Of a stretch of 64,000 nucleotides of DNA, positions 3,658 to 37,789 are shown piece by piece. This DNA comes from a bacterium SCSIO 12696 (GTDB taxonomy: Bacteria > Pseudomonadota > Gammaproteobacteria > Pseudomonadales > Porticoccaceae), in the NCBI GenBank assembly GCA_024397955.1, contig CP073744.1, positions 1,178,001-1,242,000 of the forward strand. The letters run 5' to 3'. The notes under the pieces are model-generated. The model was not told the origin of the DNA, did not search any database, and saw only the letters and a program-made list of their open reading frames with translations. The translations under genes were made by a program, and so were the position numbers. Position 1 is the first letter of the stretch. Every line of letters starts with the position of its first letter.

Positions 3658-3664
3658 TACTGTT

Positions 3665-3684: not shown

Positions 3685-3699
3685 GGCGACGATGAGTTT

Positions 3700-5697
3700 A
3701 TGGCCGGGAAAATTCCTCAATATTTTATAGACGACCTGCTGGATCGCGTCGACATTGTGGATGTGATCAACAGCCGGGTACAGCTGAAAAAAACCGGCAA
3801 GAATTACAGCGCCTGCTGCCCTTTCCACGAGGAAAAAACACCGTCTTTTACCGTCGCCCCAGACAAACAGTTCTACTATTGCTTCGGCTGCCAGGCCAAC
3901 GGCAACGCTCTTGGTTTTGTCATGGACTACGAGCGCTTGTCGTTTCCGGAGGCAGTGGAGCAACTGGCCAACTATGTGGGCCTGGATGTTCCAAGAGAAG
4001 AAACCACCCCATTTGAAGACGAGCGCGCCAAACAGAAAAAGCGCCTTTACGGCACTTTGGAAAAAGCCGATCTGTTCTACCGCCAGCAGCTGCGCAGCCA
4101 TCACTCTGCCCGTTACGCCATCGACTATCTGAAGTCTCGGGGCCTGGACGGAAAAATCAGCGCTCGTTTCGGCATCGGCTATGCACCGCCCGGCTGGGAT
4201 AACCTGCTCAATGAACTCGGTGACGACCCCACCAATCTGCGCCTGCAGGTGGACACTGGCCTGCTGATTGAAAAGCCGGAACAGAACAAGCGCTACGACC
4301 GCTTCCGCAACCGCATTATGTTCCCAATACGGGATACCCGCGGCCGCACCATTGCCTTTGGTGGCCGGGTACTGGGGGACGATAAACCGAAGTACCTGAA
4401 CTCCCCGGAAACACCCGTGTTCCACAAAGGCCGCGAGCTCTACGGCCTGTACGAAGCCACGCAAAGCCCCGGCGAACTGAACAATGTAGTCGTTGTGGAA
4501 GGCTATATGGACGTTGTGGCCCTGGCCCAGTTCGGCATTGACAATGCGGTGGCCACCCTGGGTACTGCGATCACCGGCCCGCACCTGGAAAAACTGTTCC
4601 GCTACACGCCGGAAGTGGTGTTTTGCTTTGACGGCGACCGCGCCGGCCGCCAAGCCGCCCATCGCGCCTTGGAAAACTGCCTGCCGATGATGGAAGACGG
4701 CCGCTCTGCCCGCTTCCTGTTTTTACAAGAAGGCCACGACCCGGACAGCATGGTGCGCGAAAAAGGCGCCGAGCGGTTTCGGGATCTGCTGTCGGAAGCA
4801 CAACCGCTGTCCCAGTTCCTGTTCGCCACCGCCGGTGAAGGCATTGATACCGACACCCCGGATGGCAAGGCGCGGCTGGCCAAAAATGCCGCCCCCTATT
4901 TGAACAGCATACCGGCGAACATCTTCCGGGAGCTAATGATTGCGGAGCTGGGGAATCTCACCGGGATGAACCCAGACAAGCTGGATCAGCTGATCAGCAC
5001 CAGCGAATCGCTACCGCCCGAACACCCGGAGCCCTCAACGGACAACACCGCCCAACCAACGAGTAGCCCAGACAACCCTGAGGCTCACAACAACGAATGG
5101 TATGGCAACGAGCCAAACCAACTGCAGCACGAGCCACCACCCTGGACGCAAGCAGCTCACGAAGACAATTTCAGCTCCGACACTACCACACAGCGCCACA
5201 GCAAAATGCAGCTCACTGCAGAACGCACTGCCATAGCGATTTTGCTCAACAATACCTCACTGGCGCAGCAAGTCAGTGATTGCGAACCACTGCAGCAAAG
5301 CACTAATCCGGAGGCTCAGCTATTGGCGGCACTGGTTGAGTATTTGCACAACAACACGGAGGCATCGTCTCACCAGATTCTCGGCCACTGGTTGGGCATG
5401 CACCGGGATGGTCAGGGCGCGCTGCTGGCGGAAATCGCCGCCTGCGATTCTATTTACCCTCCGCAGCACGCCGTGCGAGACAACTCCGCGGAGTTCCAGG
5501 ACGCCATCAGCCTTATCCAACGCCGCGCCATGGAAACGCTGCCATTGGAACAGCAGGTGACTTTTTTGGTCAATAAGACACAGCCTAACGAAGAAGATGT
5601 AAAAGCCGCCTTACGACTGTTGCCAGCGGCCCTGCGCAGCGACCTCAGCGATGAGAAAAAAACTCAATTGAATCAAATAATTAGGCGAAAAAAGTAA
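3700..5697 (+). CDS. dnaG: DNA primase
   Basis: DnaG makes the RNA primers for replication. The 665-aa protein has the CHC2 zinc ribbon (C40-x2-H43 ... C61-x2-C64), the RNA-polymerase domain with the TOPRIM motifs VVVEGYMDVVAL and FCFDGDRAG, and a carboxy-terminal DnaB-interaction region after a Gln/Pro/Asn-rich linker (about residues 440-510). The linker makes it longer than the E. coli enzyme (581 aa). It lies between yqeY and rpoD. The start chosen begins MAGKIPQYFIDDLL, the normal DnaG amino terminus; no strong Shine-Dalgarno is visible. Confidence 0.97.
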   Translation: MAGKIPQYFIDDLLDRVDIVDVINSRVQLKKTGKNYSACCPFHEEKTPSFTVAPDKQFYYCFGCQANGNALGFVMDYERLSFPEAVEQLANYVGLDVPREETTPFEDERAKQKKRLYGTLEKADLFYRQQLRSHHSARYAIDYLKSRGLDGKISARFGIGYAPPGWDNLLNELGDDPTNLRLQVDTGLLIEKPEQNKRYDRFRNRIMFPIRDTRGRTIAFGGRVLGDDKPKYLNSPETPVFHKGRELYGLYEATQSPGELNNVVVVEGYMDVVALAQFGIDNAVATLGTAITGPHLEKLFRYTPEVVFCFDGDRAGRQAAHRALENCLPMMEDGRSARFLFLQEGHDPDSMVREKGAERFRDLLSEAQPLSQFLFATAGEGIDTDTPDGKARLAKNAAPYLNSIPANIFRELMIAELGNLTGMNPDKLDQLISTSESLPPEHPEPSTDNTAQPTSSPDNPEAHNNEWYGNEPNQLQHEPPPWTQAAHEDNFSSDTTTQRHSKMQLTAERTAIAILLNNTSLAQQVSDCEPLQQSTNPEAQLLAALVEYLHNNTEASSHQILGHWLGMHRDGQGALLAEIAACDSIYPPQHAVRDNSAEFQDAISLIQRRAMETLPLEQQVTFLVNKTQPNEEDVKAALRLLPAALRSDLSDEKKTQLNQIIRRKK

Positions 5698-5844: not shown

Positions 5845-7656
<1,812 letters not shown>

Positions 7657-7663
7657 TTTAAAA

Positions 7664-7697
7664 AGGCTGTTGAAAGCATCAACAGCCTGACTATAAT
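7664..7697 (+). promoter_or_regulatory. Hairpin after rpoD overlapping tRNA promoter
   Basis: A 10-bp stem (7664-7673 AGGCTGTTGA with 7679-7688) follows rpoD. TTGAAA (7670-7675) and TATAAT (7692-7697), spaced 16 nt, form a good sigma-70 promoter about 75 nt before the tRNA. The -35 is inside the hairpin. There is no T tract directly after the stem, so termination is uncertain. Confidence 0.6.
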
Positions 7698-7779
7698 CAC
7701 CACCCTTTTTAAGGCATTTGGCCCGGCTGGCAACCATGCATTGCGCACCGCTAACAGGGCTGGAATAAACCGGAAAAAT

Positions 7780-7856
7780 GGGCCTTTAGCTCAGTTGGTT
7801 AGAGCACCCGACTCATAATCGGTAGGTCCCCAGTTCAAGTCTGGGAAGGCCCACCA
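7780..7856 (+). tRNA. tRNA with CAU anticodon, probably tRNA-Ile2 (lysidine)
   Basis: A complete 77-nt cloverleaf: acceptor GGGCCTT/AAGGCCC, D arm TAGCTCAGTTGGTTAGAGCA, anticodon arm CCCGACTCATAATCGG with CAT, T arm CCCAGTTCAAGTCTGGG, encoded CCA. CAU can be initiator Met, elongator Met or Ile2. It lacks the three G-C pairs of the initiator stem. It has C4-G69 and C5-G68, the acceptor pairs reported to be read by TilS, and resembles E. coli Ile2 more than elongator Met. Hence Ile2 is favoured, but not proven. Confidence 0.9.
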
Positions 7857-7932
7857 TTTTTCCCGTTGAAGCCATGCTCAACCTTTAATTGCCCTCCTTC
7901 TAGCTGACCCTTACAGCTCTCTGGAACAACTT

Positions 7933-9255
7933 ATGACTACGGTTACTTTCGACAGCCTCGGCCTCGCCGAGCCTATTGCCCGCGCAGTCCGCGAAAAAGG
8001 CTATACCCAGCCCTCCCCTATTCAAGCTCAAGCTATTCCAGCGGTATTAAAAAGTGGGGATTTAATGGCGTCTGCACAAACCGGTACGGGCAAAACCGCC
8101 GCCTTTACCCTACCGATGTTGCACCGGCTTTTAGAGCGGCCAAAAGCCGCTCACAACCAGGCTCGCGCTTTGGTGCTGACACCCACTCGTGAGCTGGCAG
8201 CGCAGATACTGGACAACCTACAGGCTTACAGCAAGCACACAAAATTGCGCTCTGCGGTGGTATTTGGTGGCGTTAAAATTAACCCACAAATGCAAAAGCT
8301 GCGTTCAGGTGTGGAGGTGCTGGTTGCCACTCCTGGCCGCCTGCTGGATTTACACAGCCAAAACGCCATCAAATTCGATCAACTGGATATGCTGGTATTG
8401 GACGAAGCGGATCGCATGCTGGATATGGGCTTTATTCACGACATCAAACGAATCTTGCGTTTGCTGCCCAAAAAACGTCAAAACCTGTTGTTTTCTGCCA
8501 CTTTTTCAGACGACATTCGCGAACTGGCCAGAGGGCTGCTGCATAACCCCACCGAAGTCAGCGTAGCACGCAAAAACACCACCGCCGAAACCATCGCCCA
8601 TAAATTGCACCCGGTGGAAAAAAGTCGAAAAACCGCCCTTCTCAGCCACTTAACTCGCAACAATGGCTGGGATCAGGCGCTGGTGTTCAGCCGCACCAAA
8701 CACGGTGCCAACCGGTTGGTTAAAGTGCTGGCTCGTGACGGCATAAAGGCCGCTGCCATTCATGGCAATAAAAGTCAGAATCAACGCACCAAAGCGCTGG
8801 CGGACTTCAAGAATGGCGAGATTACCTTGTTAATTGCCACCGATATCGCCGCTCGAGGTATTGATATTGACCAACTACCACAGGTGGTCAATTTCGATTT
8901 ACCCAATGTGCCCGAAGACTATGTGCACCGCATTGGCCGCACCGGAAGAGCTGGCAGTAATGGCCACGCCATTTCATTAGTCAGCGAAGATGAAATCAAA
9001 CAATTGCAAGACATAGAGCGGCTTATCCAACGCCACATAGACCGGGAAGAAGTGATAGGCTTTGAGCCGGAAAAGCCACTGCCGCCATCACGGAAGCTGA
9101 CCCCAGTTAAACCAAAGCGACCGAAGAAGGCAAAAACTGTGGCCAATAGCGATACAGCTAACCACAGGCAAAACACCAAAAGTCGGCAGGGCCACAGAAA
9201 GCGCTTTCGTGGAGCTAACACTTCCGGAACTAAAGCAGCACGCAGCCAGGCGTAG
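7933..9255 (+). CDS. rhlE: DEAD-box RNA helicase, RhlE type
   Basis: ATP-dependent RNA helicase acting in ribosome assembly or RNA turnover. The 440-aa protein has all motifs in order: Q motif ([14 protein letters not shown]), Walker A AQTGTGKT (residues 48-55), [17 protein letters not shown] (from residue 157), [13 protein letters not shown] and [10 protein letters not shown]. The last 70 residues are Lys/Arg/Pro-rich, as in RhlE, and probably bind RNA. The subfamily is judged from the amino-terminal [11 protein letters not shown] and the basic tail; other DEAD-box subfamilies cannot be excluded. Confidence 0.92.
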
Positions 9256-9342
9256 ATTGGACATCATAAGTCGTATAAGCAGTCACAACTGCTTTGCGAT
9301 GGATAACATTTATTGGGCATTTTCTGGATTAACTGCCGTCAT

Positions 9343-10194
9343 TTATCGTCGGCGCAGTTTTTCTTGCGCTTTTTGAACATAACGGGACTTTGCGGTTTTC
9401 TGCCAGTCATCGCTGTAGCCTTGATCAATCATTCTGGCAGTGCGCTGACGGGCACTTTGTTCCAGTTCAGGAATAAGCGCCGCTTCCGGCAAATTGCGCC
9501 AGTACTTCTTTGGCATTTCAGATTGCATAGCTTTGGATTTTAAGCGCGCCGGATTAAAAATACTCTTGTAATACGTTAACCACAGATCTTCCAACTCGTC
9601 CGTTGTATTTGGTTTTTGATGAACGCCATCACCGATTGTTAGCTGCTCCAGATTCCAGTGGGCGCAATGATCCGGCGTCAAAAGAGACCAGTGCATATTG
9701 TGAAAACGCTTCACAAAAAAGTGTATCCCGGCAGGTAATACCGGATGGCCAGGTTCAAACCAGGCAACAAATCGCTCACCACTTTCCAAGGATGCATCCG
9801 GTACTTTTTGAAAGCGCACAAACGCGTGCATTTTGTGGATTTCGCGGCCGACGGTTTTACACATTTTGTGCAAACAACGAATATCGTCATCGACGGGATT
9901 GGTCAGTAACCGTCGATCGTCAAACACCAAGCGCCAGGCGATGCGATACAGCAACGCCCAGCGGGTATGGCATCGGTAGTGAGAAGCACTTTTCGCCAAA
10001 GAAAAAAATTGCTTGGGGATGCGTAGCTCAGAGTGTTTAACCGCCAGCTGTTCCAATGACGCACTATTTTCATACAACAGGGATGGCTGAAGTTCGCTGT
10101 TCCAGCATACTTGATTTGGCTCTACCCCAGCCTTCAATAGAAGGCGTGCCTGATCTCGCCAGGCATCAAAATTGTTTGTTTTAAGAACCCACAC
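9343..10194 (-). CDS. DUF4130 family protein, partner of radical-SAM DNA repair protein
   Basis: The 283-aa product matches the TIGR03915/DUF4130 'probable DNA metabolism' family as I know it: conserved HKMHAFVRFQKV and VAWFEPGHPVLP blocks in the middle, a HWSLLTPD motif, and a carboxy-terminal YWRNLPEA..IPELEQSARQRT segment. Members are almost always encoded beside a radical-SAM protein like the one 27 nt upstream here. The biochemical role is unknown; a DNA-damage function is inferred from the partner, its helix-hairpin-helix, and the LexA operator in front of the pair. Confidence 0.85.
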   Translation of the reverse strand: MWVLKTNNFDAWRDQARLLLKAGVEPNQVCWNSELQPSLLYENSASLEQLAVKHSELRIPKQFFSLAKSASHYRCHTRWALLYRIAWRLVFDDRRLLTNPVDDDIRCLHKMCKTVGREIHKMHAFVRFQKVPDASLESGERFVAWFEPGHPVLPAGIHFFVKRFHNMHWSLLTPDHCAHWNLEQLTIGDGVHQKPNTTDELEDLWLTYYKSIFNPARLKSKAMQSEMPKKYWRNLPEAALIPELEQSARQRTARMIDQGYSDDWQKTAKSRYVQKAQEKLRRR

Positions 10195-10221
10195 TTGAAC
10201 CGTCTCTTTAGAGCTATATAT

Positions 10222-11514
10222 CTAGAACAACGCCATTTGCGGTGACTCGGTACGAGTAAAGTAATCTTTTAACTGGGGGCGATCGATGTATGGTTGTTGA
10301 GGATTGTAATCACAGGTTTCTACGAACGGAGCCACCTTTTTTACCGATAAGCCACACTTGGCCAAATGCGCGTAGCGCAGCGCATGGCTACGGCGCGCAC
10401 GGATAATTCGCTGAGCGCCAATAACTCCAATCCCCGGCACACGCAGCAAGACTTCTTTGGGTGCACGATTGATATTCACCGGAAAGAAACTCCGATTGCG
10501 CAATGCCCAGGACAATTTTGGATCAATATCCAAGTCTAGCATCCCCGACGACGCTTTCTGGCTTTTTGTGCTGTTTTTAGCAACGATTTCATCGACTTGA
10601 AATCCATAAAAGCGCAACAGCCAATCTGCCTGATAAAGGCGGTGTTCACGCATCAGCGATGGCGGTTGAGCAGGCAGTATTTGCGAGGCGTTGGGAATAG
10701 GACTGAACGCAGAATAGTACACCCGTCGCATTTGAAAGCTGTCGTATAACTGGTGGGACAGTCGCAGGATCTTTTGATCTGACGAGTCGTCTGCACCAAT
10801 AATCATCTGGGTGCTCTGCCCTGCTGGGGCATAGATACGAGATGCTGCTTTGGGCTTCAAACCCTGGGTGGTGCGCACTTTTTTTCGGTTGCGCCGCTGC
10901 TCTTTGGATTCATCAATCCGATTTTTCAGTTCGCCCATGGATTGTTGGATAGTGATTGGGCTTTTTTCCGGTGCCAAGCGTGCCAGCGACTGCCTGGACG
11001 GCAATTCAACGTTGATGCTCAACCGGTCTGCATACAAGCCTGCAGCCTCCAGCAATTCCGGGCTGGCATCCGGTATAGATTTCAAGTGGATATAACCGCG
11101 AAAATCGTGCTGCTTGCGCAGGCTTTTCGCCACCAGCACCAGTTGCTCCATGGTGTAGTCGGACGATTGGATAATACCGGAGCTGAGAAACAAACCCTCG
11201 ATGTAGTTGCGTTTGTAAAAGTCCAACGTCAGATTAACAATTTCATCCACACTGAAGCGGGCACGCTGTACCGAACTGGACGAGCGATTAATGCAATAGC
11301 TGCAATCGTAGATGCAGAAATTAGTGAGCAGAATTTTTAACAGGGATATGCAGCGCCCATCCGGTGCATAGCTGTGGCAAATGCCCATTCCCGCAGACGT
11401 AGAACCCATACCTTTGCCATTGCGCGAATTGCGCTTGATGGAGCCACTGCTGGCGCAGGATGCGTCGTACTTTGCCGCATCCGCCAATACCGTAATTTTG
11501 TCTATTAACTCCAC
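10222..11514 (-). CDS. Putative DNA modification/repair radical-SAM protein
   Basis: The 430-aa protein carries a radical-SAM cluster motif C67-x3-C71-x2-C74 (CIYDCSYC), an amino-terminal CHSYAPDGRCISLLKILLTN block, and near the C-terminus a helix-hairpin-helix (INRAPKEVLLRVPGIGVIGAQRII) typical of DNA-binding proteins. This matches the TIGR03916 family. It is the first gene of a two-gene operon with a DUF4130 protein, and a LexA box lies 49 nt before the start, so it is almost certainly SOS-induced. The substrate lesion is not known. Confidence 0.9.
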   Translation of the reverse strand: MELIDKITVLADAAKYDASCASSGSIKRNSRNGKGMGSTSAGMGICHSYAPDGRCISLLKILLTNFCIYDCSYCINRSSSSVQRARFSVDEIVNLTLDFYKRNYIEGLFLSSGIIQSSDYTMEQLVLVAKSLRKQHDFRGYIHLKSIPDASPELLEAAGLYADRLSINVELPSRQSLARLAPEKSPITIQQSMGELKNRIDESKEQRRNRKKVRTTQGLKPKAASRIYAPAGQSTQMIIGADDSSDQKILRLSHQLYDSFQMRRVYYSAFSPIPNASQILPAQPPSLMREHRLYQADWLLRFYGFQVDEIVAKNSTKSQKASSGMLDLDIDPKLSWALRNRSFFPVNINRAPKEVLLRVPGIGVIGAQRIIRARRSHALRYAHLAKCGLSVKKVAPFVETCDYNPQQPYIDRPQLKDYFTRTESPQMALF

Positions 11515-26206: not shown

Positions 26207-26243
26207 ACTAAAACCAGACCAACTGGAATATTGCAGCTATTCA
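26207..26243 (+). repeat. Left inverted repeat: copy of immunity-gene 3' end
   Basis: Plus-strand sequence reading PELKPDQLE, then AGCTATTCAT. It is an inverted, about 85% identical copy of the end of the immunity gene at 27058 (minus strand). The copy overlaps the last codons of the ATPase gene. Confidence 0.65.
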
Positions 26244-27016
26244 TCGGCTATTAGCTGACTTACCATTGATTCATGGTTATTCAAAAAGCGTTTAGTTACT
26301 ATGTAGTGTTCAGTATCTTCATAGCTAATTTCATTCATTTCACCGTTATCAAGTGAAATAATTTTCGAATCTGGATAAGCCATTAATATTGGGGAATGGG
26401 TTGCGACTATGAACTGTGAGCCATCAGCAATAAGCTGGTGCATCCTTGAAATCATTGCCATTTGACGCGTAGGTGATAATGCTGCTTCTGGCTCATCCAA
26501 TATATATAGCCCTTGACCACTAAAACGATTCATCATTAGCGCGAAGAAAGATTCACCATGTGACTGCTCATGCAAAGAAACACCACCATATGAATTAATA
26601 ATTGGTGGGCCGCCGGGACCTTCATCTAATTTTTCTATTTCTGTCGCTACATTGTAGAAACTTTCTGCCCGTAAAAAGAAACCGTCTTTTGGTCGTTCGA
26701 AGGGCCGTGATAATCGAAGGTACTTCCATAGCGGCGAGTGTGAAATTCTAGTTGAAAAAGAAAAGTTCTTTGTCCCACCTTCTGCATTAAAACCCCAGGC
26801 AACAGCTAATGCTTCAAGAAAGGTGGATTTTCCCGTGCCATTCTCCCCAACAAAAAAAGTAATATGGGGATGAAAAACCATGTTCTCGAAGTGCTGCATG
26901 ATTGGAAGTGTAAGCGGAAATTCTTCAAAATTTTCTACTTTTTCCCTTAAAAACTTTGCCGAATGAATGAATCGGGGGCTCTCAAAAAATGGCACTTTTA
27001 GAATATTCCTAATCAA
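26237..27016 (-). CDS. AAA/ABC-type ATPase (COG3910-like)
   Basis: 259 aa. Walker A GENGTGKST (about residue 57), a signature-like segment (SHGESFFALM), Walker B with catalytic Glu (LYILDEPEAALS) and the H-loop ATHSP make a complete ABC/SMC-type nucleotide-binding domain. There are no membrane parts. Similar stand-alone ATPases of unknown role occur in defence and mobile regions. The gene is bracketed by inverted repeats derived from an immunity-gene end, suggesting it arrived or was flipped as a cassette. Confidence 0.88.
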   Translation of the reverse strand: MIRNILKVPFFESPRFIHSAKFLREKVENFEEFPLTLPIMQHFENMVFHPHITFFVGENGTGKSTFLEALAVAWGFNAEGGTKNFSFSTRISHSPLWKYLRLSRPFERPKDGFFLRAESFYNVATEIEKLDEGPGGPPIINSYGGVSLHEQSHGESFFALMMNRFSGQGLYILDEPEAALSPTRQMAMISRMHQLIADGSQFIVATHSPILMAYPDSKIISLDNGEMNEISYEDTEHYIVTKRFLNNHESMVSQLIADE

Positions 27017-27274: not shown

Positions 27275-27841
27275 TCATTCACAATCGTCAGGTTCTTCCA
27301 TACAGCGATTGACACAGTTCCAGAAAGAAAAACCATTATCATTAGTTGGTAACGTTGAATCGGAACAGCGTTCGATGCAGCGATCCTTCTTGGATTTCTG
27401 ACTACTCTCACCTGGAATGGCAGGAAAAGGATAGACATTATCATCCTCTGAAGCCATTGGAGTAACTAAAGGAGGCGCAAACCTTGGGGCCGCAGATCTT
27501 GCTCCTGTTCGTGCAGCATTTCCTACAGCACCTCTAGCGGCTTGGGTTCCCGCCCATCTAACAGCTTGCCAAATTAAAGGACCGAACCATACAGCCTCTC
27601 CATCAGGATCGAAATACATAACCGGGCTTTGCAATGCATACCCATAGGTACTTATTCCTCCACCTAACCCAATCGGATCAGACTGTATATACCGCCCAGT
27701 AGCAGGATCATAATCCCTAAAGTAGTTATAGTGCAGCCCCGACTCTTCATCAAAGTATTGCCCAGGGAATCTTAGGTTATTGGCAATCGTATTGGTGATG
27801 ATTGTGGCCTCACCAAGTGGCTTTCTGAGATGGATAGCTGC
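27275..27841 (-). pseudogene. Orphan Rhs core/toxin tail (5' end missing)
   Basis: From 27826 the frame reads RKPLGEATIITNTIANNLRF, then PGQYFDEESGLHYNYFRDYD and SDPIGLGGGISTYGY, nearly identical to the core of the large Rhs gene (29509). It then diverges into a tail of about 100 residues (AAPRFAPPL..., ending with four paired Cys: CIERC, FWNCVNRC). The frame is closed by TAA at 27842 and has no credible start, so it is a displaced C-terminal cassette, the standard reservoir form in Rhs loci. Its immunity gene follows and seems intact. Confidence 0.85.
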
Positions 27842-28005: not shown

Positions 28006-28383
28006 CTACTTAATTTTTAAAAAATCAACTAATTGTGTTTGCCCATTTCTTTCGGCCCAGTCTATGGGAAAATCACCAAAATCATCGGGTATATTCTTTT
28101 TTGCGCCAAATTTAATTAAGAGCTGAGTTATCCTAACATCTCCTCTGAGAGCAGCACAGTGCAAGGGCGTCAAGCCCACATCCCCCTTGACATTAACATC
28201 TGCACCTGCGCTCAACAAAAGTTCTATATCTCTAAACTCTTCATGGCGTACCGCAAGATGTAAAAGTGTGTCATCTCCCAGGCCTGGCTGGTTGACAGAT
28301 TTGATCAGAATCCCATCATAGTCTGTATATTCCTCTTCATATCGAGAAAATAACTCCTTCAACTCTTCTTTAGAATTGAGCAT
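28006..28383 (-). CDS. Ankyrin-repeat protein, putative immunity protein
   Basis: 125 aa with about three ankyrin repeats (DDTLLHLAVRHEEFRDIELLLSAGADVN in pieces, GLTPLHCAALRGDVRITQLLIKFGA, FGDFPIDWAERNGQTQLVDFL). The ATG overlaps the 3' end of the upstream toxin frame by 14 nt, the layout of a translationally coupled immunity gene. Cytosolic. The toxin has a nonsense codon, the immunity gene does not, as expected if immunity is still selected. Confidence 0.8.
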   Translation of the reverse strand: MLNSKEELKELFSRYEEEYTDYDGILIKSVNQPGLGDDTLLHLAVRHEEFRDIELLLSAGADVNVKGDVGLTPLHCAALRGDVRITQLLIKFGAKKNIPDDFGDFPIDWAERNGQTQLVDFLKIK

Positions 28384-28979
28384 GGCGTTTCACCTCAACC
28401 TCTTCTACTGAGCACATTAAATAGTCCTGATAGCACTCTTTTTTATATTGATCTTTTAATTTTTCAGCACGATTCTTGAAATTTTGAATCTTAATTGCAT
28501 GTCTTCCTGGCTGCCATTTGGCATCCCATCATGAATACCACGCTGCACAGTTTTCAAAGTGATCTATCTCTTTTGGTAGATCAGAGCATCGATCTCCAGT
28601 TTTCTTCGGTTTTTTATCACAACGGTCTTTCATTCGTTGATAATCTTTTTGCCTCTCTACCGCACTGCCTTGAGTGTTATCTGATGGTACTGGTCAGCAG
28701 CCATCCTCTTACATGATAAGTAAGAACTGTTTCGACGCCGTTGGGATCAATAACGCGCCTCGGCTGCCCACGACCATTGTAGTCCAGATATTGAGTAAGG
28801 TGCCCAAGGGCATTATTGGTTACCGTATCTCTGTTGTCAGAAGCATCGTATGTATAGGTGGTAACGTCGTTAACATCGGTGCGAGGCCCATCCGCTGTTA
28901 GCATTTGGTTACTGCTGTTGTAGGTGTAGCTCCAGGTCTGGCTGGCGTGGCCAATGTTTGAGACACCCAGTGCTATAGA
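28370..28979 (-). pseudogene. Collapsed Rhs C-half with nonsense-mutated toxin
   Basis: 28690-28979 encodes the start of an Rhs C-half (HASQTWSYTYNSSNQMLTAD, then GPRTDVNDVTTYTYDAS, up to YHVRGWLLTSTI), very like residues 25-110 of the gene at 29509 but without its ATG. At about 28690 it jumps, with loss of frame, straight to a toxin tail (RCDKKPKKTGDRCSD, then CAAWYS-stop-WDAKWQPGRHAIKIQNF, KKECYQDYLMCSVEE, end at 28370). The whole Rhs core (about 2.2 kb) is deleted, and TGA at 28529-28531 interrupts the toxin. Confidence 0.8.
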
Positions 28980-28982
28980 GAC

Positions 28983-29200
28983 CTGTCGGCAAAAAGAAAA
29001 AGGGTTTGCAAGTACTAACCTGTAAACCCTTTAAAATATCGTGGGTCGTATAGGATTCGAACCTATGGCCAATTGGTTAAAAGTTAATCAACTGATTGTA
29101 ACCCACTATTTTTATTAACCTAAAAGACGCCGCTCGTTGCTCATTTTGGTGTACTAGGTATAACAAAGTAGGACTGATGTCGGCAACATGTCGGCAGAGT
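28983..29200. other. tRNA-Lys-derived attachment-site remnant
   Basis: Minus-strand 29041-29100 matches the 3' part of a tRNA-Lys(UUU): anticodon loop CTTTTAA, CAATTGG, T arm ATAGGTTCGAATCCTAT, acceptor ACGACCCA. The D arm and a full 5' strand are missing and the anticodon stem no longer pairs, so it is not a working tRNA. A hairpin (AAAGGGTTT...AAACCCTTT, about 29010-29033) and direct repeats TGTCGGCA at about 28985, 29179 and 29190 flank it, as at integrase att sites. No integrase gene is present. Confidence 0.65.
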
Positions 29201-29213
29201 TTGCTCGTATTTA

Positions 29214-29498
29214 CTAATCGTAGTTGTGCTCAGACCAAACACTCCCGTCTTCTTTATAACAAATGTAAATGCCCACTCTTTCACCATCGCAGTAACTTCC
29301 TAGTTCTTTTAATTTCCCATTTTCCCACCAAGTCTTGTAGGAACCATGGTAGTCTCCATCCTTAAATGAAGACTCCTGAATCAATAATCCATTTGAATTC
29401 CAAAGCTTGCAGGAGCCATGTGGCTTACCGTCTACAAATTCAGCCTCGCCAATTAGATTGCCAGAGTCGTCGTATATTTTTCTTACTTCAATACTCAT
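29214..29498 (-). CDS. MORN/YwqK-like immunity protein
   Basis: 94 aa from ATG 29498 (MSIEVRKIYDDSGNLIGEAE). Repeats of the MORN/YwqK type: FVDGKPHGSCKLWNSNGLLI, FKDGDYHGSYKTWWENGKLK and CDGERVGIYICYKEDGSVW. YwqK-family proteins are known antitoxins of polymorphic toxins. It begins 10 nt after the stop of the large Rhs gene, so it is the predicted immunity gene for that toxin. An upstream start at 29624 would overlap the Rhs gene and is rejected. Confidence 0.85.
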   Translation of the reverse strand: MSIEVRKIYDDSGNLIGEAEFVDGKPHGSCKLWNSNGLLIQESSFKDGDYHGSYKTWWENGKLKELGSYCDGERVGIYICYKEDGSVWSEHNYD

Positions 29499-29508
29499 TT
29501 TTCTTGCT

Positions 29509-32226
29509 CTAACGCGGATAGTCTTTAAATGGGTTATATTCTGGCGGCTCTGCTGGATTTCTTCTTCCGCCATTAGCTTTACATAGATTTCTACGATGTG
29601 CTGCTCTTGAGAGACAAGCAGCAACTACTCTCCCGCCTAAGTTTGACCATTGGCCACAATTACCACTCTCAATAACCCACCTGCTATAACAAAAGTCATC
29701 CTCATCACCACCATTGTTATCGCATGCCTGCGTATCCATTGCGTCTGGGCCAACATCATCCACAGGGCTAACCCAATCATCATCATTTCCAAAAGCATCC
29801 CAGATTACATCGCCCAACCACCGCATAAATACGCGGCCACCTGTTGTACGTAATGCGTACCCCGTTGCAACATAAGTCGCACGACCTACATATTGGGCTG
29901 CGAGGCCTTCAGGGTCTACATAGTTAACTGGATTTCCTTCAACATACCCATAAGTGTTGATTCCACCAGCTAGGCCAATTGGGTCAGACTGTATATACCG
30001 CCCAGTAGCAGGGTCATAATCCCTAAAGTAGTTATAGTGCAGCCCCGACTCTTCATCAAAGTATTGCCCAGGGAATCTCAGGTTATTGGCAATCGTATTG
30101 GTGATGATTGTGGCTTCACCAAACGGCTTTCTATCCGTTGACCATACAACTTGTTGGCTGCCATCTGTAATCACCTGCGGCGTACCCAGATGGTCATTGT
30201 GGATAAAGTAGATAGAAGCTGGTGTAGACGGTGCGTAAGCGGCAACTGCCAAAGGCTGCCCAGATAGATAGATGTACTCACGAATAGCCTGGCCGGTATC
30301 GTCCAACTCAGCCAGCAATTCACCATTGCCCGCGTACAAGTAGTGAGTATTCCCACTGGCGGTACTCTTGCGCACTCGTTCACCACGGGCGTTATAAGCG
30401 TAGGTGGCCAGCAGCGTGTCTTGTGGGCTGGCTGAAGTATTGCGCTGGCTAACGGTAAACAGTCGGTTGCGGTCGTCGTAGCCATAAATCAGGCCATCGC
30501 CATTGCTGTCGAGCTTGCTGATCTGGTTGCCGTTGTTGTCGTACTGGTATGTCCAGTTGTTGGTGCTTAGCAGTCTGTGGCTGTTGGCGTCGTAGGTGTA
30601 GCTGTCTGTGCCCGTGTTATCGGTGATGGTTTGACGGTTGCCCGTTTCGTCGTAGGTGTAGTCAATGGTGCCGTAGACGCCGGTGGCGTTGGTCAGGCGG
30701 TTCAGGGCATCGTAAGTCAGTGACTGATCCCGGGAGCCGTCGAGGGTGTCATCAATGGCGGTGATGTTATCGACGTTATCGTAACTGTAGCTATTGCTTT
30801 TGACAGTGCCGTGATCCTGGTTCGTTAGGCGATAGTCCAGATCGAAGCTGCGGCTCAGTTGGATACCGTTACCGTAATTAAACTGCTGTATGGGGCCAAA
30901 CGGCAGGTAGGCCATGTTATTGGCCAATGATGTGGTTGTGCCATTCAGTGTGGTGCTGGCTCCGCTAATTTCCCCTTCACTATTGTAAGTGTAATCAACG
31001 GTGCGGCCACTGGGGTAAGTTACCTGCACCAGTTGTTGGGCGGTGTTGTAGCCATAACTCAGTGTGTAGGTAACATTGCCAGTGGCGCTAATGCCAGTGA
31101 GGTTGCCAAAGTGGTCGTAAGTGAATGTGCGGGAGCCTGATGCATCGGTAACACTGGTAAGGCGGCCTTTGCCGTTAGCCCCAGCATCGTAACCATAGGT
31201 GATATTAAGTGAACTGTCTGGGTAGCTGGTAGATAGAGGGCGATTCAGGGCATCGTAAGTAAAAGTGGCGGTGACACCATTGGCATTGGTCTGTGTCAGG
31301 CGGTTATTGGCATCATCGTATGTATAAGTAGTGGTGCCAGTATCCGGGCTCACCATGCTGGTTAGGTTGCCAAAGCCGTTGTAGTTGTAGGTGGTTACCA
31401 GGCCTTTGGGGTCTGTGACCGTTTTGATATTACCCTGAGCATCGTAGGTATAGCTGATGTCCTGATTTAGGGGGCGGAGTTCGTCTTTGAGACGATCCAG
31501 GGCATCGAAGGTTTGAGTGGTCTGGTTATTATTGCCATCGGTGACGGAAGTGGTATTTCCGTTAACGTCATAACCGTAGCTGGTAGTTTGGTTGTTGGCA
31601 CCCACAGAGGTGAGCATCCGGCTCAACTCGTCGTAGGTTTGAGCCATGGTTTTAACAATGCTGCCACCGTTGTCTTTGATAACTTCCTGAGTGACGTTAC
31701 CCGCCAGATCGACAGTGAACTCAATCCGTTCGCCGGAGCTGTTGCTAACGGCAGTCAAGCGGCGAGCACCATCGTATTCGTAGTTCAGGGTTGCACCATT
31801 TGCCAGAGTGATGCTGGCAACTTGCCCCACGTTGTCGTAACCAAAGGTGGTAACAGCATCATTGGCGGCATTGCCACCGGTGTCTTTGATGGTACTGGTC
31901 AGCAGCCAGCCACGGACATGATAAGTCAGAACCGTTTCGACGCCATTGGGGTCAATAATGCGCCCCGGCTGCCCACGACCGTTGTAGTCCAGATATTGAG
32001 TAAGATGCCCAAGGGCATTGGTTACCGTATTCCGATTGCCAGAGGCATCGTATGTATAAGTGGTGATATCGTTAACATCAGTGCGAGGTCCATCCGCTGT
32101 TAGCATTTGACCATTGCTGTTGTAAGTATAATTCCAAATCTGGCTGGCATGGCTAATGCCTGACATCCCAAGTGCCAACATGCCTGCGGTAACAGCTATG
32201 CCCAGTTGTTTTTTTACGTTGTTCAT
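29509..32226 (-). CDS. Rhs C-terminal half: exported YD-repeat/Rhs core protein with toxin tail
   Basis: 905 aa from ATG 32226, which has GAGG upstream and a clean signal peptide (MNNVKKQLGIAVTAGMLALG, cut after SHA). The body is YD repeats from WNYTYNSNGQ onward, then the Rhs core (HNDHLGTPQVITDGS, GQYFDEESGLHYNYFRDYDP, RYIQSDPIGLAGG), then after VDPEGL a variable tail with conserved Cys (DDFCYSRWVIE, ACLSRAAHRRNLCKANGG) of unknown activity. In usual Rhs proteins the sequence before WNYTYN is continuous with a long amino-terminal part; here that part is encoded separately by the three genes upstream. Confidence 0.9.
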   Translation of the reverse strand: MNNVKKQLGIAVTAGMLALGMSGISHASQIWNYTYNSNGQMLTADGPRTDVNDITTYTYDASGNRNTVTNALGHLTQYLDYNGRGQPGRIIDPNGVETVLTYHVRGWLLTSTIKDTGGNAANDAVTTFGYDNVGQVASITLANGATLNYEYDGARRLTAVSNSSGERIEFTVDLAGNVTQEVIKDNGGSIVKTMAQTYDELSRMLTSVGANNQTTSYGYDVNGNTTSVTDGNNNQTTQTFDALDRLKDELRPLNQDISYTYDAQGNIKTVTDPKGLVTTYNYNGFGNLTSMVSPDTGTTTYTYDDANNRLTQTNANGVTATFTYDALNRPLSTSYPDSSLNITYGYDAGANGKGRLTSVTDASGSRTFTYDHFGNLTGISATGNVTYTLSYGYNTAQQLVQVTYPSGRTVDYTYNSEGEISGASTTLNGTTTSLANNMAYLPFGPIQQFNYGNGIQLSRSFDLDYRLTNQDHGTVKSNSYSYDNVDNITAIDDTLDGSRDQSLTYDALNRLTNATGVYGTIDYTYDETGNRQTITDNTGTDSYTYDANSHRLLSTNNWTYQYDNNGNQISKLDSNGDGLIYGYDDRNRLFTVSQRNTSASPQDTLLATYAYNARGERVRKSTASGNTHYLYAGNGELLAELDDTGQAIREYIYLSGQPLAVAAYAPSTPASIYFIHNDHLGTPQVITDGSQQVVWSTDRKPFGEATIITNTIANNLRFPGQYFDEESGLHYNYFRDYDPATGRYIQSDPIGLAGGINTYGYVEGNPVNYVDPEGLAAQYVGRATYVATGYALRTTGGRVFMRWLGDVIWDAFGNDDDWVSPVDDVGPDAMDTQACDNNGGDEDDFCYSRWVIESGNCGQWSNLGGRVVAACLSRAAHRRNLCKANGGRRNPAEPPEYNPFKDYPR

Positions 32227-32278
32227 CCTGCTGTCCTCATTGGTATTCTTAAAAGTCATTCCATGCTCCATGAATGAA

Positions 32279-33895
32279 TCAAGGCGTTAAATCATTGCGT
32301 TGCGTGCTGAGTAGGTTCCCATTTGAGTCGTAGAAATAAATGAGTTCGTAGTCCGAAGAAGTGATTTTGGTGGGCAGGTTCAAGGTCGGATGCCACTCGG
32401 TGGTAAACAAACGCTCATCAGGCGTGCCCACTGCTTCGGTGCGAGTTAGCTCTTGGCCTTTGGCATTACGAATGTAGTTAGTCAAATTGCCCAGCCAGTC
32501 GGTTTTGCTGGCAAGGAAGCCGTTGGCATCGTAGGTGTAGGATTTATTGGCGGCTGCACAGTTTGTGGCTTGATGGCCTTCTACCTGTGTGACTTTGCGA
32601 GCGCCATAAATGGTGGTAAAGCGGTAGGTAGTTTGTTTGCCTAAGGCGTTAGTAGCCGTCACTTTTGGATCAACAGAATCGTCAATATGGGTATAGTCTA
32701 ACGTAACTTTCTCGGCACTTCCGTGGTGCTCTGAGCTAATGGCACGGCCTTCAGCGTCATATGCCCAAGTGGCAAAACGAATCCCTTTTTCATCTGTGAT
32801 ACCAGTCAAAGCATTAGGAAAATTTGTATCTTCATAATGATAAATACGAGTACCTCCATTACTAGCATAGGTCGTAGCTATTAAGCGGTTACTAGAGTCG
32901 TATATATAGCTGGAAAAAAGCCCATCTGAGTTAGAAATACTGTCTAGAAGCGAGCTAGCTGAATATGAGAAATACAAGTAATTACCGCGATTATCTTCAA
33001 CTTTGTCTAGTGTGCTTGGATCGTTATCGCCGCCATTAGGCACGCTCAAATCATAATGAAAAGACAAAATTTCTTGGCCATTTTTATAATATACCGAAAT
33101 CAGATTTCCATTCGAATTATAAAACTCAGATTTTCCCTCAATAGTTTTTAACTCCCACATGATACTGCCTGTGGATGCATCAGACGTAAGTTCAAAATTC
33201 ACATCGGGATCTACAGTCCAACCCTCAGTCAAAGACCCCAAGAAACCAATTTCACTACCATCTTCTCTGTGAATTACACCTTCTAGCGGGCCATTCTCAA
33301 AAGAGTTGAATACGACTATTTTTCTATCTGCTACAGTCCTTAAGGTAGTAAATTCTGTATTCCAGTGATAATAAATAGGCCAGATGTAGTTATTATTGAG
33401 TTTTACCTCGCTATCCATTAGTTGGTATTTGTAACCAGTTAACGTATTAATTGGATTTCCAGAACATTGTTTCGGAGTACCTGAATTCTTGTTTTGACAA
33501 TCGTATATATTTCGGCTGCTGTCATCGCTAGTACAAGGTGATTCTCCACTGCCACCACTCCAAGATTCGACCTTAAACTCTCTCATTTCGTTACTATTTG
33601 TTTTTCCAGTGAAATACGCCCTGCAGATTTTTCCCCTCGACTTGCATGCGTTGTAATGCCCTCGCCATGATCCAGTGTACGACTCATACTGCCATTTGCT
33701 TTTTCGCCAGCTTCCAGCGCTAGCGTTATTAATAAAGAAAGAGGAGAGAAGCACTAATATCAAAATATTGCTAATAAGTAGGCGTATTTTTTTCTCAGAG
33801 GTAAAACGCAGCAGAGAAAACGAATTATGAGAATTCCGCCATTTTACAAGGGCTGCAGACATCACGATACTCAGTCGTTTCTCAGAATTTTTCAT
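32279..33895 (-). CDS. Rhs N-terminal half C: exported YD-repeat protein
   Basis: 538 aa from ATG 33895. The first 17 residues (MKNSEKRLSIVMSAAL) resemble the signal peptide of the Rhs C-half and are followed by a second hydrophobic segment (LLISNILILVLLSSFF, cut near ASA), so the leader looks chimeric. Then a Cys-rich head, a DUF6531-like entry (GNPINTLTGYKYQ), and YD repeats. The last about 200 residues (from YPNALTGITDE-like NFPNALTGITDEKG to LLSTQRNDLTP-stop) are near-identical to its two tandem paralogues. It ends 52 nt before the C-half start. Confidence 0.85.
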   Translation of the reverse strand: MKNSEKRLSIVMSAALVKWRNSHNSFSLLRFTSEKKIRLLISNILILVLLSSFFINNASAGSWRKSKWQYESYTGSWRGHYNACKSRGKICRAYFTGKTNSNEMREFKVESWSGGSGESPCTSDDSSRNIYDCQNKNSGTPKQCSGNPINTLTGYKYQLMDSEVKLNNNYIWPIYYHWNTEFTTLRTVADRKIVVFNSFENGPLEGVIHREDGSEIGFLGSLTEGWTVDPDVNFELTSDASTGSIMWELKTIEGKSEFYNSNGNLISVYYKNGQEILSFHYDLSVPNGGDNDPSTLDKVEDNRGNYLYFSYSASSLLDSISNSDGLFSSYIYDSSNRLIATTYASNGGTRIYHYEDTNFPNALTGITDEKGIRFATWAYDAEGRAISSEHHGSAEKVTLDYTHIDDSVDPKVTATNALGKQTTYRFTTIYGARKVTQVEGHQATNCAAANKSYTYDANGFLASKTDWLGNLTNYIRNAKGQELTRTEAVGTPDERLFTTEWHPTLNLPTKITSSDYELIYFYDSNGNLLSTQRNDLTP

Positions 33896-33947
33896 CCTGC
33901 TATTCTCATTACTTTTCTTAAAAATCATTCAATGCCCCATGGATAAA

Positions 33948-35486
33948 TCAAGGTGTCAAATCATTGCGTTGTGTGCTAAGTAGGTTCCCGCCTGAGTCGT
34001 AGGAGTAAATCAGTTCGTAGTTCGAAGAAGTGATTTTGGTGGGCAGGTTCAAGGTCGGATGCCACTCGGTCGTAAACACTCGCTCATCAGGTGTACCCGC
34101 GGCTTCTGTGCGGGTTAGCTCTTGCCCTTTGGTATCACGAGTGTAGTTGATCAAATTGCCAAGCCAATCAGTTTTACCCGTCAGGAAGCCGTTCGCATCG
34201 TAGGTATAGGCTTTGTTGGCGGCGGCGCAGTTAGTAGATTGATGACCTTCCACTTGGGTGACTTTGCGGACGCCATGAATGGTGGTGAAGTGGTAGGTAG
34301 TTTGCTTGCTAAGAGCGTTGGTGACAGTGACGTATGGATTTAGAGAATCTATATGAGTGTAATCTAAAGTAACTTTCTCAGCTCCATTAAACTTTTCACT
34401 AGATATAGCTCGACCAGCAGCATCATATTCAACAGTTGAAATCCGATTTCCTTTTTCATCCGTGATTCCAGTTACATATTTTGGGAATGCCACATTCTCG
34501 TAGTGAACAGTATGATATGGGTTATCTTCCCCAAATGGGTTAGCACCAGATTGGCTAGGTGTATCGTCGGGTAAAGAAACATACTCCAACAATCCTACGC
34601 CTCTGTAGCTATAGCGGTATATCCCTTCACCATCTCTGGCAATAGATACTATCTGAGCATTACTATCCAGGGATAATGTGACATCTTCGCTTCCTCCAGA
34701 AATAGTTATTTGGTTATTTTGATACGAAAGGGTTTGCACTAAACCTTTTCTGTTTGTTATTGAAAATAATCTTCCGGTGGGGTCATATTGCTCTGATGTC
34801 CCATCTATAGAAGTGAATATAAAATCTTGTCCTTGAGAAGTTAGTTTTGCAGTTACATCTGGATCACCTGTCCATGTATTTACCTCTTCTCTATATTTGT
34901 ACGCTTTACCATCTGGTCGAAACACAGTAGCAGTTCTAGGCGATTCAGAACTCACTTCAATATTCTGTAAATAGCTCCAAGACCATTCCCCAGAAAAATT
35001 GTTATAAAATCGAGAGATAATAATAGGAAAACTCCCAGAGCCATGGTAATCAGTCAATGTATAAAACTTATTGCCAACGGCTATAGATATAGGGTTCGGA
35101 GTTGAGGCGCATTGCTCTCCATGATTTTTGGGGCGTACATTACACGAACCATCACTAGGATCGTAAATGTTTCCGGGGGGACAATTTGTACCATGACGGC
35201 GAATCCCCGCATAAGAAAAACCTAAATCACTATAGCAATGCCCGTCCTTATCGTTGAACATTACAACAGAGCCATGCCCCCAATATTGAGCATGGGCACC
35301 TGCGCTAGCACATGCAGTTTCAGCAGATGAATAGCCCCATGAAGGAGCCCCATAGCACCACTGGCACGATAAGCCCCACACATACTCACTGCTGTAAGAA
35401 TTTAATGACAAAGAATAAAAGCAAAGAGTAGTGATTTTAAGTAAAGCCGCAAATATCCCAAAGTGATTTTCAATTTTTTTCATCAT
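33948..35486 (-). CDS. Rhs N-terminal half B: exported YD-repeat protein
   Basis: 512 aa (ATGATG at 35486/35483). Signal peptide about residues 1-31 (FGIFAALLKITTLCFYSLSL), then a Cys-rich head of its own (CQWCYGAPSWGY, CPPGNIYDPSDGSCN) and a DUF6531-like entry (PISIAVGNKFYTLTDY), followed by YD repeats. From TGITDEKGNR to NDLTP-stop it is nearly the same as copies A and C. The head is unrelated to theirs beyond the general plan, indicating exchange of heads on a fixed tail. Confidence 0.85.
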   Translation of the reverse strand: MMKKIENHFGIFAALLKITTLCFYSLSLNSYSSEYVWGLSCQWCYGAPSWGYSSAETACASAGAHAQYWGHGSVVMFNDKDGHCYSDLGFSYAGIRRHGTNCPPGNIYDPSDGSCNVRPKNHGEQCASTPNPISIAVGNKFYTLTDYHGSGSFPIIISRFYNNFSGEWSWSYLQNIEVSSESPRTATVFRPDGKAYKYREEVNTWTGDPDVTAKLTSQGQDFIFTSIDGTSEQYDPTGRLFSITNRKGLVQTLSYQNNQITISGGSEDVTLSLDSNAQIVSIARDGEGIYRYSYRGVGLLEYVSLPDDTPSQSGANPFGEDNPYHTVHYENVAFPKYVTGITDEKGNRISTVEYDAAGRAISSEKFNGAEKVTLDYTHIDSLNPYVTVTNALSKQTTYHFTTIHGVRKVTQVEGHQSTNCAAANKAYTYDANGFLTGKTDWLGNLINYTRDTKGQELTRTEAAGTPDERVFTTEWHPTLNLPTKITSSNYELIYSYDSGGNLLSTQRNDLTP

Positions 35487-35534
35487 GCATGCTCGCCGGC
35501 ATTATCAATAAGAATTCTATATTCCATGAATAAA

Positions 35535-37091
35535 TCAAGGTGTTAAATCATTGCGTTGTGTGCTAAGTAGGTTCCCGCCTGAGTCGTAGGAGTAAATCAG
35601 TTCGTAGTCCGAAGAGGTGATTTTGGTGGGCAAGTTCAAGGTTGGATGCCACTCGGTCGTAAACACTCGCTCATCAGGCGTGCCTGCTGCTTCGGTGCGA
35701 GATAGCTCTTGCCCTTTGGTATCACGGGTGTAGCTGATCAAATTGCCAAGCCAATCCGTCTTACTGGCGAGAAAACCATTAGTATCGTAAGTGTAAGTTT
35801 TGTTTGCTGCTGCACAGTGAACGGATTGATGGCCTTCAACTTGAGTGACTTTGCGTACACCATGAATAGTGGTGAAGTGATAAGTTGTTTGTTTGCCCAG
35901 AGCGTTGGTGGCCGTCACTCTTGGGTCAACTGAGTCATCTATGTGCGTATAGTCTAGGGTAACTTTTTCGGTACTGCCGTGATGTTCTGAACTAATAGCT
36001 CGCCCTTCAGAATCATATGCCCAAGTGGCAAAACGAGCACCATTTTCATCCGTAATGCCGGTCAAGGCATTTGGATAACTGGCATTCTCATAGTGATAAG
36101 TTCGAGCAACCGCACTATTGGGATATACAATGGAAACTAACCTTCCAACGGAATCATAAGTGTAACTGTAATGTTCTCCCTGCCCTGCAGTAAATCCAAT
36201 GATTCTTCCGGAATTATCAACATCAAAGACTAGCTGATCGATACCATTACTTACTGAAATAGTTGACGTTGAATAGGTATACGTTTGGCTATTTCCATTG
36301 ACATTATGTACAGCAACCAGCTGCCCAGACCTATTGTATTCTTCTGTGGTTTTTCCATCGATAAGGTATTTCCAGCCAGAAATACTACCATCTGCAAAAG
36401 CCCTCTTTACAGAACCTTGAACATCAGGATCAGGAAACCAAGTAGAGCCATTTCGGGTAAATATCAGTTGCTTGCCATCAGCTCTGGTCACCATGACTTC
36501 TACATGGCGCCTGGAGGCCACAGCTTCTGGGAAAAATCGCCATCTACCCGTATTAGAGTTATAGTACCTAACTACTCTAAGTGGATTAATGCCAGATGAT
36601 ACATAGTCCACAACACGTTGGTGCTTGTTTCCAGTAACCAGATTTATAGGATTTCCAATATCTGACGATGGGCATGACGATGGGCCATTTTGTTTGCCAT
36701 CAGAAGATGTACATGCATAACCAGCTAAAGGATCCGGCTGTCCCCCTAATGGGCAGCCATTTATATAACCGAATATATGTACCGTTGAGCAAGTATCCGG
36801 CTGGTTTGGGTTATCTGCTACTCCGCCTGGAACTAGCTCACAACCTGAAAATATTCTAAAACCTTCATAGAATCTTCTTCCATTATTTGGGTCTCTCCCT
36901 TTCCAAAAGTGATCGCATCTTTGCCCAAACAAACTTTGACAAGCACTATTGGCAGACTCACTTGAATCAAAGAAGCCATGATCTATGGTAGAAGTGGCGA
37001 CTGAAAATTTTGAAAAAAGCAGCAAAAAAGGAAAAAGGATCCAAAAATACTTTTTTGTTTTCCCAGTTATCGATAATGCTGAAACTATCAC
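35535..37091 (-). CDS. Rhs N-terminal half A: exported YD-repeat protein
   Basis: 518 aa with a GTG start at 37091 supported by a strong AAGGAG six nt upstream. Signal peptide about residues 14-32 (KYFWILFPFLLLFSKFSVAT). Cys-rich head, then IGNPINLVTGNKHQRVVDYV (DUF6531-type entry), YYNSNTGRWRFF, YD repeats, and the shared tail ending LLSTQRNDLTP-stop. It is the first intact gene of the tandem array and the only one with a strong ribosome site, so it may be the main translated copy. Confidence 0.87.
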   Translation of the reverse strand: MIVSALSITGKTKKYFWILFPFLLLFSKFSVATSTIDHGFFDSSESANSACQSLFGQRCDHFWKGRDPNNGRRFYEGFRIFSGCELVPGGVADNPNQPDTCSTVHIFGYINGCPLGGQPDPLAGYACTSSDGKQNGPSSCPSSDIGNPINLVTGNKHQRVVDYVSSGINPLRVVRYYNSNTGRWRFFPEAVASRRHVEVMVTRADGKQLIFTRNGSTWFPDPDVQGSVKRAFADGSISGWKYLIDGKTTEEYNRSGQLVAVHNVNGNSQTYTYSTSTISVSNGIDQLVFDVDNSGRIIGFTAGQGEHYSYTYDSVGRLVSIVYPNSAVARTYHYENASYPNALTGITDENGARFATWAYDSEGRAISSEHHGSTEKVTLDYTHIDDSVDPRVTATNALGKQTTYHFTTIHGVRKVTQVEGHQSVHCAAANKTYTYDTNGFLASKTDWLGNLISYTRDTKGQELSRTEAAGTPDERVFTTEWHPTLNLPTKITSSDYELIYSYDSGGNLLSTQRNDLTP

Positions 37092-37219
37092 GACCTACTC
37101 CTTTTACAAGATGGATAGAAACAAAGATTTTTTTGTATGGGAGGCCAGATCATATTTAGGTGTCTTCAATAAAGGCACTCTACTGCCCCCTATTTTATTC
37201 TTTCAGTAAATCCCTTAAA

Positions 37220-37789
37220 TCAAGGTGCAATATCATTGCGTTGCCTACGAAGTAGATTTCCGTCTGAGTCGTAGGAATAAATCAATTCGTAATCCAAATA
37301 AGTAATCTTGGTGGGCAGATTCAGAGTTGGATGCCACTCGGTTTTGAGGAGTCCCAATGCATTGACCTGGATAGCCACTGTTATAGGTATAAAAGCCTGA
37401 TGAGCATATGCTGGTTAAACGAATGTAGTCACTTGGAGGAAAGTGATCTCTGAAACATTGCTTGTCGGATATATGACGCGCCTAACATAATTGCACCCAC
37501 AGAGCCTTCCACTACATGAGCCAAGCCCTATATATTCAAATTCGTTTAGCTTATTTTTGTGCACGTAGCTCTCTGGTGTAGCAGCATATGCAGAGTCATG
37601 AGAGGAATAAGGGTCAACAAATACCCAAGCGGTTCCATTCGCGTTTTTAGTACGAGCTTCGTAGATCAACTCACCGGGTGTCGTCCCCTGCGTAGCGGAC
37701 ACTACTACAGAGAGCTGTATAAAAACCATAAGCATCAACAACTTATAGAATGAACCGTTTGTGAATTTTCTAAGATATTTTTTATACAT
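37220..37789 (-). pseudogene. Degenerate fourth Rhs N-half
   Basis: An exported head (37415-37789, 124 aa; signal peptide KLLMLMVFIQLSVVVSA) stops at 37415, but a shifted frame continues with SICSSGFYTYNSGYPGQCIG. That leads, after a deletion of the whole middle, into TEWHPTLNLPTKIT and on to GNLLRRQRNDIAP-stop (37220), a diverged version of the tail of copies A-C. So this is a fourth paralogue that lost most of its body and its frame. The 124-aa head could still be made as a small secreted protein. Confidence 0.75.

Follow-up and report, generated by a model that had tools for sequence, protein, structure and literature searches.

To our knowledge, Rhs shells have been treated as single-chain cages, with the Tc toxins as the exception. 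In the Tc toxins (PMC8636562, PMC11067744), two chains make up the YD-repeat shell, the barrel is extended and closed by a separate protein that serves as the N-terminal plug, and a TcB can be combined with several TcC. Tse15, an Rhs protein of the type VI secretion system (T6SS), is cleaved post-translationally into three fragments that remain associated (PMC11461821), Bcn-A of Xanthomonas perforans is an Rhs bacteriocin whose activity needs the type II secretion system (T2SS; PMC7259588), and the bacterial teneurin-like proteins are YD shells, some with signal peptides, with a toxin tip and an immunity gene (PMC13018210). The locus described here lies in a stretch of 64,000 nucleotides (nt) from the gammaproteobacterium SCSIO 12696 (assembly GCA_024397955.1, contig CP073744.1, positions 1,178,001 to 1,242,000), referred to below as the window. 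There, the shell is encoded not in the usual single chain but by two genes, each with a signal peptide of its own.

No description of genetically split Rhs shells outside the Tc toxins was found in the open-access literature searched, as far as its texts were accessible. The available text of a Bathymodiolus symbiont paper reporting many YD genes (PMC4612132) does not contain the word "split", and that of a polymorphic-toxin survey (PMC3482391) contains it once.

Organization of the split locus

The Rhs shell gene in the window is split. On the minus strand the order is a decayed N-terminal half (N-half), three live N-halves (N1, N2, and N3), one C-terminal half (C-half), a MORN-repeat open reading frame (ORF), the remnant of a further C-half start, an ankyrin-repeat ORF, and an orphan plug with its tip. 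A first-pass annotation, made from the sequence alone, had reported three tandem N-half frames with a common stop and a C-half frame with its own leader, and all were found where it had placed them. N1, N2, and N3 share the end GNLLSTQRNDLTP-stop, the decayed fourth N-half stops at the same place, and the C-half, after its signal peptide, resumes SQIWNYTYNSNGQ..DGPRTDV. The genes are separated by 48 nt (N1-N2), 19 nt (N2-N3), and 7 nt (N3-C). We consider it likely that they encode a two-chain Rhs shell with exchangeable caps that is closed after export, its assembly being predicted. The parts of the locus are as follows.

37415..37789, minus strand: decayed fourth N-half, signal peptide and head
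37216..37342, minus strand: decayed fourth N-half, tail with its stop at the same position as in the live N-halves
35535..37091, minus strand: N1, with signal peptide, variable head, DUF6531, first YD repeats, and the end NDLTP
35454..35537, minus strand: scar behind the N1 stop, more weakly C-half leader-like (67% over 85 columns)
33948..35486, minus strand: N2, with a head unlike that of N1 and the tail in common
33867..33950, minus strand: scar behind the N2 stop, C-half leader-like (76% over 84 nt to the live C leader)
32279..33928, minus strand: N3, with another head and the same tail; its first codons are C-half leader-like
32198..32281, minus strand: N3 stop and live C-half leader
29509..32271, minus strand: C-half, with signal peptide, remaining YD shell, C-terminal plug with DPxG..DPxG motif, and 131-residue tip
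29214..29498, minus strand: MORN-repeat ORF of 94 residues, 10 nt behind the C-half, immunity-like by its position
28671..28979, minus strand: remnant of a second C-half start, including the end of the signal peptide
28006..28383, minus strand: ankyrin-repeat ORF behind the C-half remnant, a putative orphan immunity gene
27569..27826, minus strand: orphan copy of the C-terminal plug (79% at the amino acid level), running into another tip (ORF 27275-27634)

Signal-peptide-like starts, called here and throughout by a crude rule of our own making, are found in N1, N2, N3, the C-half, and the head ORF at 37415-37789. PF05593 is matched by all four window proteins, and PF03527 and TIGR03696 by the C-half. 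The DUF6531-type entry attributed to all three N-halves was scored by Pfam DUF6531 in N1 and N2 and not in N3, and the heads, described as Cys-rich, hold 7, 8, and 4 Cys in their first 150 residues (N1, N2, and N3, respectively). The C-half keeps the DPxG pair (Asp763 and Asp786), and its 131-residue tip has no Pfam match. Over 127 nt, the tail of the decayed fourth N-half is 83% identical to the tail common to the live ones. At 28671-28979, the beginning of the collapsed C-half aligns with that of the live C-half, including the end of the leader, with 78% identity over 143 columns; the annotation had read it as showing the same break.

In structural models, the N-half maps to the first part and the C-half to the remaining part of solved Rhs shells, consistent with the complementary halves that the annotation envisaged. 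The locus would accordingly encode, in pieces that each carry their own signal peptide, the hollow YD-repeat shell of a Sec-exported Rhs polymorphic toxin. The variable head would come from the N-half, together with the N-terminal plug and the first hairpins of the barrel; the rest of the barrel, the aspartyl-protease plug at the C terminus, and the toxin tip inside would come from the C-half. After export, presumably in the periplasm, the last N-half hairpin would pair edge to edge with the first C-half hairpin, so that the tip becomes enclosed in the shell. Once folded, the product may exit by type II secretion, and the heads probably set the binding target of the particle. As several unlike heads sit on one docking tail, one toxin could be capped in several ways. 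We infer both the physical assembly of the N-half with the C-half and its site.

Recurrence of the split among relatives

In all, 119 regions were read (the window and L043-L160), and three profiles, for the N-half end, the C-half start (C-start), and the C-terminal plug, were mapped on every open frame. Strong C-starts (at least 140 bits) occur in 109 distinct frames, where split and single-chain forms both exist, contrary to the refuting case of relatives with single-chain Rhs only that the annotation had named: 57 also contain the N part (a few of them are cut elsewhere), 42 are split with a signal peptide ahead of the C-start, 3 start shortly before the C-start without one, and 7 are of other kinds. 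A signal-peptide-like stretch is thus present in 42 of the 45 frames that start shortly before the C-start; none of the 57 unbroken relatives has one at the junction, and 48 of the 56 unbroken relatives with complete 5′ ends have one at their own start. Among the 5′-complete N pieces, 50 of 53 keep a signal peptide. When other genomes were searched for adjacent N-half and signal-peptide C-half genes, as the annotation had suggested, 40 of the 42 split C-halves were found behind at least one N-half frame, at N-C gaps of -112 to 757 nt across the split loci; the exceptions are L070 and L074, the latter at a contig end. The L070 C-half (7372-10098) belongs to a genome, G094, with several other N-halves and may borrow one of these. 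The C-half frame of L105 (6807-9068) carries a signal peptide of its own plus about 85 additional residues ahead of the C-start, and the N-half frame of this locus (3500-5467) follows the C-half frame instead of preceding it.

The break had been placed within a YD repeat. Comparison with unbroken relatives shows that it falls instead in a linker between two hairpins: 25 of the 30 compared have 4-23 residues between the N and C profile matches; three, in which the C profile begins late, have 28-39; and two, L045 and L050, have 371 extra residues at the junction. In the split relatives, the linker site marks the end of the N frame, with an additional tail preceding the stop in six cases; the C frame opens with a cleavable-looking leader and picks up a few residues ahead of the first strand. 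In L057 the N-half (6372-10628) extends 767 residues past the break, and this tail has 17 scored RTX stretches.

Across relatives, the shell is interrupted at about five sites, and some have it in three pieces; the new starts are signal-peptide-like. The break lies roughly 130 residues earlier in L145, where two N pieces end alike, and in L146; both (L145:3858-10576, L146:5281-10637) represent a second split site with its own signal peptide. It lies inside the C-start region in L125 and L126, near the TcB/TcC position in the case of L125 (5544-14826), where two tandem N pieces ending alike, the first without a signal peptide, are followed by a piece with a signal peptide, extra N-terminal sequence, and the C-terminal plug. 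In L083 the break is further on than in the window. A break directly before the C-terminal plug is found in the three-piece systems L043, L047, L049, and L076, and also in L106 and L107, where the N and middle parts share one frame and the plug and tip are separate. Extra domains are frequent at the breaks: Golvesin_C, Ig-like, or RTX parts form the ends of the middle pieces in L049, L043, and L047, some N-half tails hold RTX or TSP3, and in the L045 chain with its 371-residue insert Golvesin_C was scored in six stretches.

In the order to which the window belongs, the split form was found in at least 21 of 390 evenly drawn genomes, its own included, a floor that counts only the fetched matches (roughly E at most 1e-41) that were classified. 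Two further cases, L116 and L141, came from 369 genomes of the class, and all five strong matches outside the class in a phylum-wide sample have N and C in one frame. The split carriers bear 12 family codes; carriers known by name, some of which may be identical with coded ones, are Motiliproteus, Amphritea, Hahella, an Oleiphilaceae metagenome-assembled genome, an Osedax symbiont, and Spartinivicinus ruber S2-4-1H (genes RS29565, RS29570, and RS29575), on whose plasmid pB both halves are annotated "RHS repeat protein". The congener G001 has neither a C-start match nor GspC. A quick 65-row tree of the C-halves, with 19 open forks and no fixed root, requires 5 changes between split and fused forms, at least 3 of them forced by starred branches (mean with shuffled labels, 21); because the root is not fixed, gain and loss of the split are not separable. 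Between the C-halves of the window and L053 the ratio of nonsynonymous to synonymous substitution (dN/dS) is 0.07, with synonymous sites near saturation. Taken together, the tree, the 12 coded families, and the dN/dS support a split that is old, recurrent, and kept, as opposed to a recent frameshift, which the annotation had likewise argued against.

Toxin tips, proposed exchangeable caps, and competing explanations

Eleven split loci have two or more N-halves: three in the window and in L048, four in L075, at least four in L094 (where the end of the region limits the count), and two in the other seven. In 24 within-locus pairs from 10 loci, identity climbs toward the junction, with medians of 29% for the head (range 18-56%; shuffled baseline 23%), 41% for the middle, and 80% for the last 150 residues, compared with a median tail identity of 45% between loci. 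This agrees with the interchangeable N-halves that had been proposed, the tails being mostly conserved and the heads differing. Between loci with C-starts at least 75% alike, the heads are at most 46% alike in 26 of 29 pairs, which come mostly from a few related genomes and are not independent. No head family was named in a Pfam scan of the 59 N pieces. In the window, half of the synonymous sites of the tails differ at a dN/dS of 0.06-0.12, which argues for constraint and not fresh copying; by this measure the tails are under purifying selection, and recent gene conversion as the source of their likeness was ruled out on the same ground. The leader-like scar behind the N2 stop scored 88 (best of 200 shuffles, 28) and that behind the N1 stop 55 (best of 500 shuffles, 37). 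It is therefore likely that each of these two N-halves directly preceded a C-half at one time and that new N-halves came in at the N-C junction.

The tips vary among relatives, with Ntox16, Ntox30, Tox-WTIP, and Tox-HNH-EHHH each matched by 1 of 38 pieces. The paired DPxG pattern is present in 22 of 33 C or T pieces and absent from 11, or from 12 if the L098 match, which looks spurious, is set aside. An ORF of at least 45 residues starts within 150 nt behind 30 of these 33 pieces, as against 714 of 1500 random points. Variable tips with a small gene behind them are the pattern of polymorphic toxins.

In ordinary rhs loci, orphan toxin tips at the 3′ end recombine into place. The N-halves could be a similar store, in which only the copy adjoining the C-half is used and the others are heads that recombine into that place; the leader scars and tail repeats do indicate recombination at the junction, and orphan tips lie 3′ of the same locus. 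We nevertheless regard this as doubtful, given the signal peptides retained by 50 of the 53 5′-complete N pieces and the close spacing of neighboring N genes (-4 to 84 nt in 10 of 11 arrays; 377 nt in L077). Moreover, the tails in the window have diverged at half of their synonymous sites and little in protein, so that each N copy seems to be selected as a protein. That constraint, the N-then-C order of 40 of the 42 loci, and the occurrence of the same parts in one chain in relatives also make it improbable that the N-halves are secreted YD proteins in their own right, with no remaining part in completing the C-half shell, although in six N pieces the YD part is followed by extra sequence, the tails are unlike in three within-locus pairs, and the N-C complex is putative.

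Gene decay, frameshift, or assembly error has some evidence in its favor: the window holds true remnants (37216-37789 and 28671-28979), and L152, L153, and the third pieces of L087, L093, and L105 look frameshifted. These five have no signal peptide at the break, whereas the 42 counted splits do; since the split recurs, in 12 coded families, and the C-half is constrained (dN/dS 0.07), such an origin is highly improbable for the main loci. We give next to no credence to a single polypeptide still made by ribosomal bypassing. The short gaps between the genes would suit it, but each lineage would have to bypass a different signal peptide, and the gaps run from -112 to 757 nt.

Several observations weigh against a two-chain shell closed after export. 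The mapped N and C ranges overlap by 83-133 residues in 12 bacterial chains, and the N-half head has a predicted local distance difference test score under 50 in a single-chain model. The N3 signal peptide is preceded by a leader of about 50 residues, L070 is a split-type C-half without an adjoining N-half, and within-locus tails fall below 55% identity in 3 of 24 pairs (L079, 34%; L116, 48%; L049, 53%). With respect to the export route, 15 of the 22 other split genomes have the T6SS marker TssK, no T2SS gene GspC was found in three split genomes, and GspC occurs in 19 of 22 split, 21 of 24 unbroken, and 15 of 26 non-carrier genomes, descent being uncontrolled.

A search for TssK found none in the genome of the window, and T6SS delivery was rejected as a requirement. 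The genome of the window has two GspC genes. Carriers have GspC in 40 of 46 cases and non-carriers in 15 of 26 (Fisher p 0.008, the genomes being related), the non-carriers being those that happened to be listed in genome scans. The link to the T2SS is weak, and we do not lean on it because the genomes are related and the non-carriers were sampled haphazardly.

A broader reading, which we hold to be slightly better than an even proposition, takes the Rhs shell as an evolvable kit. In Gammaproteobacteria, repeated cuts at about five sites between hairpins would have divided it into two or three separately exported subunits that reassemble. Tips would be exchanged at the 3′ end and caps or targeting heads at the 5′ end, and with as many as four or more caps available to one toxin, a single locus would yield a mixed population of particles. 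These would be two-ended polymorphic toxins because both ends are now free to vary.

Two further features lie near the locus. Between the live operon and the remnants, the 23 nt at 29041-29063 (minus strand) are identical to the 3′ end of the tRNA-Lys(ttt) gene of the genome and resemble an attachment-site scar; the sole other copy of the 23 nt, at up to one mismatch, is the intact tRNA-Lys gene about 117 kb off on the opposite strand. Beside the locus, an AAA ATPase ORF (26237-27016, minus strand) shows a weak likeness to PtuA-type defence ATPases (49 bits; cut-off 500).

Relation to known systems

If true, the wide occurrence of shells made of several chains would mean that the cage tolerates opening at several positions without loss, and it suggests that dangerous cargo could cross the Sec channel unfolded and be enclosed only afterwards. 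The natural variation of heads on a constant tail offers a system for asking what the N-terminal cap does. A warning also follows: short "RHS repeat protein" genes, such as those on Spartinivicinus ruber pB, may be working subunits and not truncations.

Within the literature searched, the separately exported halves, the several caps per toxin, and the cuts at several sites appear to be new here, whereas two-chain Tc shells and the cleavage of Tse15 were known. Bcn-A differs in being one chain of 1,398 residues. The bacterial teneurin-like proteins also differ in being one chain, with NHL and FN-plug parts, neither of which is among the Pfam matches of the window proteins and the 59 N pieces. 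The single-chain T6SS Rhs effectors (RhsA, Rhs1/Tre23, RhsP, and Tse15) share the shell fold, the DPxG motif, and the tip; here the split is genetic, at other places, and before export, and no PAAR family is among the Pfam matches of the 59 N pieces, unlike in those effectors. As in TcB-TcC, the YD shell is divided between two genes, whose products map to complementary parts of solved shells and would form it from two chains; the arrangement is a mirror image of the Tc one, with one toxin half and several caps. The two differ in that neither SpvB nor a propeller family is among the Pfam matches of the N-halves (59 N pieces), and in the separate Sec signal peptides found here; the solved TcC chains begin at C-half residue 244, about 200 residues further on. 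We regard the locus as an Rhs toxin variant that may work like TcB-TcC without being one.

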